DNA from: Pseudobdellovibrionaceae bacterium
GTDB taxonomy: Bacteria; Bdellovibrionota; Bdellovibrionia; Bdellovibrionales; UBA1609
Direction of reading: 5' to 3'
NCBI GenBank assembly: GCA_947444305.1
Contig: CANEZP010000018.1
Coordinates: 1 to 64,000, forward strand
DNA length: 64,000 bases
The position numbers were made by a program, and so were the translations under genes. Under the pieces are notes generated by a model. That model was not told the DNA's origin, did not search any database, and saw only the letters and a list, made by a program, of their open reading frames with translations. This document shows, in pieces, positions 15,598 through 17,292 of this stretch. Position 1 is the stretch's first letter. Each line of letters starts with the position of its first letter.

Positions 15598-15669
15598 TTG
15601 GCTTCGCACGGCGAGTTTGAGGGCCGCTCGGTGGCGCGGCTCGCGGTTTGCGGCTCCGAAGCGCCAATC
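15596..15669 (+). other. Large stem-loop directly after plsC-like gene
   Basis: Arms GATTGGCTTCG (15596-15606) and CGAAGCGCCAATC (15657-15669) pair with one 2-base bulge. Inside, GCGAG (15611) pairs CTCGC (15640) and GCCGC (15623) pairs GCGGC (15636), giving a compact nested structure of about 74 bases. There is no T-run after it, so it may be a processed 3' end, a Rho-linked stop or a structured RNA. Confidence 0.55.
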
Positions 15670-15707
15670 AATTCGGCGCAGGAATGTTCCATCCATGTGA
15701 GTGCGGC

Positions 15708-15730
15708 CATTCCGCCATCCGGGCGGAATG
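15708..15730 (+). other. Perfect 9-bp hairpin in intergenic region
   Basis: CATTCCGCC (15708-15716) and GGCGGAATG (15722-15730) form a perfect stem with a 5-base loop. A 10-bp palindrome GGAATGTTCC lies just upstream (15681-15690). There is no T-run. It is one of several structures in the 687-bp gap between the acyltransferase and HNH genes. Confidence 0.5.
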
Positions 15731-15880
15731 GGAATGAAATGAAGAGATTTAATTTTTAGGGGGGGAGAGTAGGCGTCCCCGCAAGCGATCGGGTTTACAC
15801 TCTTCACCAGTTTTTCCTCTCCTCATTCTTCTTCTTCTTCTTTATCCTTCCCAAAAGAAACAACCCTCCCAAATATACAC

Positions 15881-15906
15881 TCTTGCGGCCGCGGACGGCC
15901 GCAAGA
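15881..15906 (+). other. GC-rich 10-bp hairpin in intergenic region
   Basis: TCTTGCGGCC (15881-15890) pairs perfectly with GGCCGCAAGA (15897-15906), with a 6-base loop. It sits amid pyrimidine-rich low-complexity sequence (15815-15870). No convincing gene is seen in 15670-16284. Confidence 0.5.
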
Positions 15907-15967
15907 AGCCACTCTCAAGGACGGAAAATTTTAGCACCAAGAAGATGAGGCCATCGAAGCCAAAAAC

Positions 15968-15981
15968 TCTGCGCGCACAGA
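15968..15981. repeat. Palindromic repeat copy 1 (one mismatch)
   Basis: TCTGCGCGCACAGA, one base different from the 14-bp palindrome TCTGCGCGCGCAGA found three more times within 1.1 kb. It is preceded by AAAAAC and followed by ATTTTCC, close to the flanks of copy 2. Confidence 0.7.
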
Positions 15982-16035
15982 ATTTTCCGATTGGATTCTC
16001 TTCATGAAACAAAAGTCCGAATCGCTTCAATGAAC

Positions 16036-16049
16036 TCTGCGCGCGCAGA
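16036..16049. repeat. Palindromic repeat copy 2
   Basis: Perfect 14-bp palindrome TCTGCGCGCGCAGA in the upstream region of the HNH gene, flanked as GAAC...ATTC, so symmetry extends slightly beyond the core. Confidence 0.75.
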
Positions 16050-16284
16050 ATTCTTTTACATTTTTCTCTATTTCTAAATAGCATTTGACGAGATTTTTGG
16101 CTCAGCATTGAAGCAGTCACGTGGTTCAATTTCACAATTTGCTTTCGAAGTTCCAACCGAAAAGTAGCTCGCCGTATTGGGGCAATTCGAAGCTTTAAAG
16201 ATGAATGGTACTTAGGCTCTTCCGGTTCAGGAAACGATGTTTTCAAAACCCATGTTAGCTTCACCTCAGCTTAAGGAGTCGAAG

Positions 16285-17292
16285 ATGAATGCTGAGCAAA
16301 AATGGATTCATGAGTGTGCGTTGGCCGCGAAAGTTCGTTATCACAAATTCGAACTCGAGTTCGTCCAGATCTTGAAGGATGTTGAGCGTAGTAAAACGCA
16401 TAAGGCTTTAGATAAATCGAGCGTACATGCTTACGCCGTTGAGATATTGGGCTTTACCGATGCCGTGGCTTACAGCTTTATCGCGGTGGCTCGCAAATCG
16501 CGCGAGATACCTGAAATTTTAAAATCCGGGCTTTCGGTCTTTGTTTTGAATCGGATGGTATCTACCTTAAATACTGAGAATGCTTCCGAGCTCATTCAAT
16601 ATGCGCAAACGCATTCTAGTCGCGAACTCGAGCGAGAGTTGGGGCGGCGCAATCCGCGGAGTAAATGCGAACGGGTGAAGTTCATCTCGGAGGAGTGCGT
16701 TGAGATTTCGGCGCATGTGTCGGTTTCGTTTTTAGAAAAACTCAAGCGGGTTGAAGCTCTGCGCGCGCAGAAAAATCAGCCGCAAGGTGTTGGCTGCGCG
16801 CTGGAGTCGGCTTTAGAAGAGTATTTACGAAAGCACGATCCCGTGCAGAAGGCGGAGCGGGCGCGGCGGCGTGAGGCCAAGGCGCACTCGATGGCGCGTG
16901 AAGAGGGACGGCATAGAGAGCAGACTCGACCGAACGAGCAGGCTAGACCGAACGAGCAGGCTAGACCTAGCGAGCCGGCACGGCGTGCTGAAAACGAAGA
17001 GCGGTCAAAAACGGCCGAGAGAAAACCTGGAGAACTCTGCGCGCGCAGAGTTGGGAAGCGAGTGCCGCTGACCGCGGCGCAACGGCACGCGGTGTTCGCG
17101 CGGGATTCCGGGCGGTGTACGCATTTAGATAAAGTCGGTCAGCGGTGCGGGTCAGATCAGTGGATTCAGGTCCACCATATTATAGAGGTGGCGCGCGGCG
17201 GGAGTAATGATCCTCAGAATCTGACGACGCTCTGTTCATTTCACCATGATCAGATTCATCAGTTGCACTTTCCGATGGAGCGTTGGGGATGA
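16285..17292 (+). CDS. HNH endonuclease-domain protein
   Basis: A 335-residue protein with the ATG at 16285 behind TTAAGGAGTC. The N-terminal half (1-170) is helical and of unknown type, comparable to the N-terminal regions of DUF222-type HNH proteins. Residues about 200-260 are a highly charged linker containing a short tandem repeat (EQARPN-type unit, about 2.5 copies). A classical HNH domain follows (about 265-330): CTHLDKVGQRC zinc knuckle, IQVHHIIEVARGG catalytic His-His, then the NLTTLC and HHDQIH ends. It probably cuts DNA; the target is unknown. Base composition is more AT-rich in the N-terminal part than in neighbouring genes, and two copies of a palindrome lie inside it, both suggesting a mobile or recently acquired gene. 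Confidence 0.88.
   Translation: MNAEQKWIHECALAAKVRYHKFELEFVQILKDVERSKTHKALDKSSVHAYAVEILGFTDAVAYSFIAVARKSREIPEILKSGLSVFVLNRMVSTLNTENASELIQYAQTHSSRELERELGRRNPRSKCERVKFISEECVEISAHVSVSFLEKLKRVEALRAQKNQPQGVGCALESALEEYLRKHDPVQKAERARRREAKAHSMAREEGRHREQTRPNEQARPNEQARPSEPARRAENEERSKTAERKPGELCARRVGKRVPLTAAQRHAVFARDSGRCTHLDKVGQRCGSDQWIQVHHIIEVARGGSNDPQNLTTLCSFHHDQIHQLHFPMERWG
16758..16771. repeat. Palindromic repeat copy 3, inside HNH gene
   Basis: Same perfect 14-bp palindrome, here inside the HNH coding sequence, read in the frame CTG CGC GCG CAG (Leu-Arg-Ala-Gln). Confidence 0.75.
17036..17049. repeat. Palindromic repeat copy 4, inside HNH gene
   Basis: Same perfect palindrome (16 bp with flanking C/G, 17035-17050), read in a different frame from copy 3: CTC TGC GCG CGC AGA (Leu-Cys-Ala-Arg-Arg). 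The frame difference shows that it is the DNA that is conserved, not a peptide. Confidence 0.75.

Follow-up and report, generated by a model that had tools for sequence, protein, structure and literature searches.

Private palindromes in and around HNH nuclease genes of a Pseudobdellovibrionaceae bacterium: a candidate REPtron-like element

REPtrons consist of a single RAYT (TnpA-REP) gene beside inverted hairpin repeats which are also dispersed in the genome, and in some of them the REPs are kept near the gene (PMC8266576). Some REP families, for example the CGTC repeats, are reported without a dedicated transposase, and palindromic repeats within coding regions are known as well (PMC3733652). 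The Rickettsia palindromic elements are such repeats that lie in frame within coding sequence. As a precedent for multicopy HNH repeats, REP13E12 of Mycobacterium tuberculosis with its DUF222-HNH protein comes closest; REP13E12/HNH/DUF222 are listed among repetitive elements (PMC10589994). An HNH domain and a tie to Y1-type transposons are combined in IscB and the accessory nucleases of the IS605 type, and ParB/Spo0J binds with a helix-turn-helix the palindrome parS of about 16 bp. In the literature search we found no paper linking HNH with REPIN/RAYT, nor Bdellovibrio palindromes with HNH genes.

The HNH gene compared here with these systems lies on contig CANEZP010000018.1 of the draft genome GCA_947444305.1 from a Pseudobdellovibrionaceae bacterium. 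The window, that is the whole stretch of DNA analysed, covers positions 1 to 64,000 of this contig. The locus has the following features.

15653 to 17292, plus strand: whole unit of the subfamily-I paralogues (inverted REP pair, palindromes, HNH gene), delimited by pairwise DNA homology and upstream alignment
15653 to 15728, minus strand: distal REP arm, a REP-like unit of about 80 bp with the hairpin CCATTCCGCC-ATCCG-GGCGGAATGG, recognised by profile search, compensatory stem and folding against shuffles
15880 to 15960, plus strand: proximal REP arm with the hairpin TCTTGCGGCCGCGGACGGCCGCAAGA; the same unit occurs upstream of Y1 transposase genes
15968 to 15981, no strand: palindrome copy 1, upstream, with one mismatch (TCTGCGCGCACAGA), 7 bp past the REP arm
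16036 to 16049, no strand: palindrome copy 2, upstream, exact
16285 to 17292, plus strand: HNH gene with the conserved start MNAEQK; the reading frame is open from the ATG at 16237 (351 aa from there)
16758 to 16771, no strand: palindrome copy 3, intragenic, encoding (A)LRAQ(K), a palindrome only in subfamily I
17033 to 17052, no strand: palindrome copy 4, extended to 20 bp (AACTCTGCGCGCGCAGAGTT), in the linker directly ahead of the HNH domain, encoding ELCARRV; its exact 14-bp core begins at 17036
17140 to 17259, plus strand: HNH domain (residues 302-341, PF01844; Pfam E 4.2e-8, above the curated cut-off)

The initial annotation of the window had placed a palindrome at 15968 (with one mismatch), 16036, 16758 and 17036 and had noticed it nowhere else. 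All four coordinates are correct, and no further match with up to two mismatches exists in the whole window. Shuffled versions of the window contained 0.79 matches on average, and only one out of 100 reached four. It had also been stated that the intragenic copies differ in reading frame, and this is the case, as the copy at 16758 encodes ALRAQK and that at 17036 ELCARRV. A genome-wide count, in which equal frequency without linkage to HNH genes would have spoken against a connection, revealed a strict linkage instead: the draft genome (4.17 Mb, 29 contigs) harbours twelve exact copies of TCTGCGCGCGCAGA, and all twelve are located at four HNH paralogues, three per gene. If one mismatch is allowed, the pattern is found at 20 places, compared with three for the reversed control pattern.

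In total we found twelve palindrome-bearing HNH paralogues in this genome, which we grouped by their private palindromes as follows.

Subfamily I, TCTGCGCGCGCAGA: paralogues C18, C13, C16 and C1
Subfamily II, TTCTGTGCGCACAGAA: paralogues C5, C2, C17, C3 and C7a
Subfamily III, ACTCTGTTTAAACAGAGT: paralogues C15 and C7b
Subfamily IV, CTGTTTGTACAG: paralogue C2b, centre not symmetric

Each of these genes carries one copy in the linker directly before the HNH domain, and the upstream copies lie about 130-540 bp ahead of the start (farther in C3 and C7b). The homologous linker site is present in all twelve paralogues with changed cores, most of which are still symmetric. Genome-wide, the type II palindrome CTGTGCGCACAG occurs at 17 places, twelve of them at five HNH genes, and type III (CTGTTTAAACAG) at five places, four of them at two HNH genes. 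The sequence of the palindrome covaries with the HNH subfamily, as if each enzyme tags its own gene.

Studying the coding sequences reveals that the linker palindrome is read in a single frame in 12/12 genes and encodes [L/F]CxxR, the middle residues of which vary with the palindrome (AR, AH, LN or TN). The arginine codon is AGA in all twelve genes, against a share of 11% in the rest of their sequence and of 3% in host genes nearby. When runs of identical codons are compared among the four subfamily I paralogues, the longest is EALRAQ, which coincides with the palindrome at 16758; in subfamily II it is FCAHR, which coincides with the linker palindrome. The HNH paralogues within the genome differ by a dS of about 0.8-2.3 at a dN/dS of about 0.07-0.13. 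Because synonymous sites are frozen despite a dS of about 1 between paralogues, the DNA rather than the peptide is constrained, as had been proposed in the initial annotation; the same sites, together with the invariant AGA codon, rule out conservation of the LCARR peptide as the sole cause. At the same time a dN/dS of about 0.12 indicates that function is maintained in the HNH genes. Subfamily II mostly retains the LRAQ peptide, but there its codons form no palindrome, therefore the additional inner site is private to subfamily I, where it fits the type-I core.

Upstream of the gene a pair of inverted REP-like hairpins (15653-15960) was found, which had not been remarked upon before. Two conserved upstream blocks are reverse complements of each other and form an inverted pair of REP-like units of about 80 bp. 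Their 10-bp stem shows compensatory changes across 49 copies, 40 of which are fully paired, and the hairpins fold far better than shuffled sequences. The inverted pair is located upstream of eight out of twelve palindrome-bearing HNH genes, and at least one arm is present at ten. In the four subfamily-I loci, the shared DNA begins about 500-600 bp upstream of the gene, and pairwise homology extends from the outer REP arm to the HNH stop codon or a few bp beyond; outside this unit no homology was detectable when the four loci were compared pairwise. The flanking protein is only about 36% identical in genomes of the same genus, which is too distant for a comparison of empty sites. Nothing in the upstream region reached the gathering threshold in an Rfam search, and the matches by E-value were at chance level only. 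We therefore rejected an RNA of the omega or HEARO type, from which the locus differs in that the upstream blocks are the inverted REP pair shared with Y1 genes.

In this genome 20 out of 24 Y1_Tnp genes have the same REP unit upstream. Two Y1 proteins were tested and matched both the REP-associated and the IS200 tyrosine transposase models, each below the cut-off. The 24 Y1_Tnp matches represent a large and divergent set of REP-type transposases, most of which have a REP stem variant of their own. None of the 24 Y1 loci carries a TCTG/CAGA palindrome. As the REP unit is common to the Y1 genes, the HNH gene occupies a REPtron-like frame but lacks a Y1 domain, and because the palindrome is private to the HNH subfamilies, there are two nested repeat systems. 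The unit resembles a REPtron in having a single gene beside inverted hairpin repeats. These are scattered through the genome as well, and the Y1 transposase genes use the same REP unit. However, its gene encodes an HNH nuclease without a Y1/HUH domain, so that it does not belong to the RAYT family, and a second, subfamily-specific short palindrome is added, one copy of which lies in the coding sequence.

The HNH protein consists of a helical N-terminal domain, a variable linker and the C-terminal HNH domain. Searching Pfam and NCBIfam for a Y1/HUH domain gave matches to HNH domains only, and no accepted Pfam family covers the N-terminal domain. The best NCBIfam match is IscB, restricted to the HNH part and with a score of 31.7 against a cut-off of 175. 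Although the HNH domain and the tie to Y1-type transposons are shared with IscB and IS605-type accessory nucleases, no RuvC domain was found and matches in the PDB are limited to the HNH part; with neither RuvC nor a known RNA, an identity as IscB was rejected. The architecture, a helical N-terminal domain followed by a C-terminal HNH domain in a multicopy protein, resembles that of the DUF222-HNH proteins. But DUF222 itself gave only a weak match in paralogue C6 (E 0.0018, below the cut-off) and none in the palindrome-bearing members tested. A structure model based on an alignment of two sequences has a mean pLDDT of 57.9, with values mostly of 70-92 in the helical N-terminal part. In a Foldseek search the top match of this domain is Spo0J-parS, which is not significant (E 1.4, probability 0.44), and in hhalign it scores 21 against the helix-turn-helix of this genome's own ParB (shuffles about 10, probability 10%). 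The likeness to ParB/Spo0J, which binds a palindrome, may be taken as a weak lead towards palindrome binding. The protein differs from ParB in having no ParA or CTP-binding part and an HNH domain instead.

The protein matched nothing in the phage and plasmid collections, for which reason an origin from either was rejected. In the window the gene is neighboured by an acyltransferase-like gene and a response regulator, as read from their translations. No methyltransferase gene adjoins it in the window, and a type II restriction-modification pair was rejected on this ground.

The HNH protein family is present in 34 out of 59 searched genomes of the order, with up to 38 matches per genome. We searched each gene and its surroundings (-700/+500) for perfect palindromic 12-mers present in two or more copies. 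Such repeated palindromes were found at 18 out of 54 HNH loci (ten from this genome, eight from relatives), but at none of 26 other window stretches and none of 24 Y1 transposase loci. A simulation of all loci yielded one locus in 20 rounds. Together with the genome-wide linkage these controls rule out a chance origin of the pattern. Relatives from other genera follow this design with palindromes of their own, which are given below.

Three loci of genome G014, GTTCTTAAGAAC: upstream and just downstream of the gene
Loci of genome G037, TGTCGCGCGACA: upstream and just downstream of the gene
Locus L125, TGTCCCGGGACA: upstream and in the linker
Locus L126, ATTCTTAAGAAT: upstream and in the linker
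Locus L116, CTGCCCGGGCAG: two copies within the gene

Seven out of nine copies of the G014 palindrome in its genome lie at three HNH genes. Of the G037 palindrome 51 copies exist when up to one mismatch is allowed, while its reversed control has none. In G037 and at locus L094 the gene is flanked by long inverted repeats. Many of the more distant family members examined carry no such palindromes. G037 also has many HNH copies and palindromes at contig ends, which suggests that near-identical repeats break the assembly. Beside an HNH gene of G014 (L099:1379-1771, G014:C14) there is a perfect inverted repeat of 196 nt with 1 nt between the arms, which may be real or an assembly artefact.

Arrays of palindromes related to that of subfamily IV lie far away from any HNH gene. 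Another stretch (L059:2014-2177, G000:C20:37213-37376) holds six palindromes of the TCTGT....ACAGA type with an exact spacing of 30 bp and differing spacers, in frame within an ORF for a membrane protein of 591 aa (SVQSS..TLYKQS..). Tandem arrays of 5-11 related palindromes without an HNH gene nearby are found at L052:1470-1782 (G000:C2:33469-33781), L053 and L060, with spacings of 30, about 23-47 and 31 bp, respectively. For the L052 core TATGAA no matching HNH gene was found in this genome. Two type-II palindromes (L162:1496 and 3340, G000:C7:126495 and 128339) enclose a stretch of 1.8 kb like a composite element, which by its translation holds a gene for a trypsin-like protease. Orphan REPs with a palindrome occur at C1:245k and C3:18.6k.

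The same changing sequence appears at several sites per locus, mostly symmetric and with synonymous positions included, and the simplest cause is a dimeric reader of duplex DNA which differs by subfamily. Judged from the sequences, no candidate other than the HNH protein was seen that would differ in step with the palindromes. With moderate confidence we favour an element that is selfish and REPtron-like, with the gene of an HNH nuclease taking the place of the Y1 (REP-type) transposase gene and encoding a palindrome-recognising protein. Its unit runs from the inverted REP hairpins over one or more short palindromes to the HNH gene with the inner palindrome. The helical N-terminal domain would bind the palindrome as a dimer, each subfamily recognising its own, and the HNH domain may nick or cut DNA there or nearby. 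The unit and the palindromes would spread; the REP hairpins are probably processed in trans by the Y1 transposases, the likely movers of the unit. A classical homing endonuclease was rejected, as insertion should destroy its own site, whereas the palindromes (if they are the site) are intact around and within the gene. For the same reason plain cutting there would be self-destructive, and binding (as tether or operator), nicking or structure-conditional cutting is likelier. The initial annotation had regarded a self-marked HNH gene as a candidate selfish element, which is well supported by the strict linkage, the covariation with subfamily and the DNA-level constraint, and also by the defined unit common to the paralogues and the same pattern in other genera. 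Each of the three roles it had offered for the motif (nuclease recognition or tethering site, binding site for own control, small mobile palindrome) may apply, and the last is partly borne out by the related palindromes away from HNH genes, seen as tandem arrays and with orphan REPs.

The main rival, improbable but alive and compatible with part of the data, holds that the palindromes are operators, by which the HNH protein or a dedicated regulator represses its own gene, with the inner copy as roadblock or auxiliary operator and no role in mobility. The upstream copies about 130-540 bp before the start, the inner site and the subfamily-matched dyad symmetry, as for a dimeric regulator, would all suit this function. 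It leaves unexplained, however, the palindromes that closely follow the gene in G014 and G037, the 51 copies in G037, the tandem arrays including the one in frame in an unrelated membrane-protein gene, and the REP frame. This frame and the stray palindromes, together with the presence of the unit in several copies, rather favour a mobile selfish role.

That stray palindromes exist, some in frame in another gene, would also be expected if they were self-spreading REP-like miniature repeats, driven by Y1 transposases or another factor and gathering at an insertion-tolerant HNH linker and upstream region like the Rickettsia elements, and the known palindromic repeats in coding regions (PMC3733652) are a precedent. 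We regard this as quite unlikely, because the subfamily-I copies are at HNH genes in 12/12 cases, 0/24 Y1 loci carry them, and the linker copy sits at a homologous position with its core changed on both halves between subfamilies, for which insertion alone is insufficient. The Rickettsia elements are alike in their in-frame position, but here the palindrome is tied to one gene family with matched upstream and inner copies. The interaction of the HNH protein with the palindromes is an inferred one, which leaves a very small chance for a host factor unrelated to it, such as a methyltransferase or nucleoid protein, as the reader; such a factor would hardly account for a private palindrome per HNH subfamily in one genome whose remainder is largely without it, and the window has no adjacent methyltransferase gene. 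Still slightly less credible is a role as transcript hairpins (terminator or stability element). The extended copy (17030-17055) can fold single-stranded (-7.0 kcal/mol, z -2.7, DNA parameters), but those at 15968 and 16036 show little or no advantage over shuffled sequences in folding, the inner copies are not followed by a T-run, and the symmetry includes the four central bases, where an RNA loop would not require it.

Beyond the REPtron-like selfish element favoured here, we tentatively raise a broader and rather doubtful view, namely that a family of palindromic repeats has an HNH nuclease instead of a Y1 transposase as its cognate enzyme. This would be a new kind of REP system, with several private enzyme-repeat pairs diversifying together in one genome and the recognition site kept in frame in the enzyme's own gene. 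Matched pairs of nuclease and repeat in a single genome make the co-evolution of enzyme and repeat directly testable, and they provide a natural set of nucleases, each with predicted sites that are readable from its own gene. If true, this view would also provide a function for a large group of multicopy HNH proteins in Bdellovibrionales that are recognisable by the HNH domain alone.
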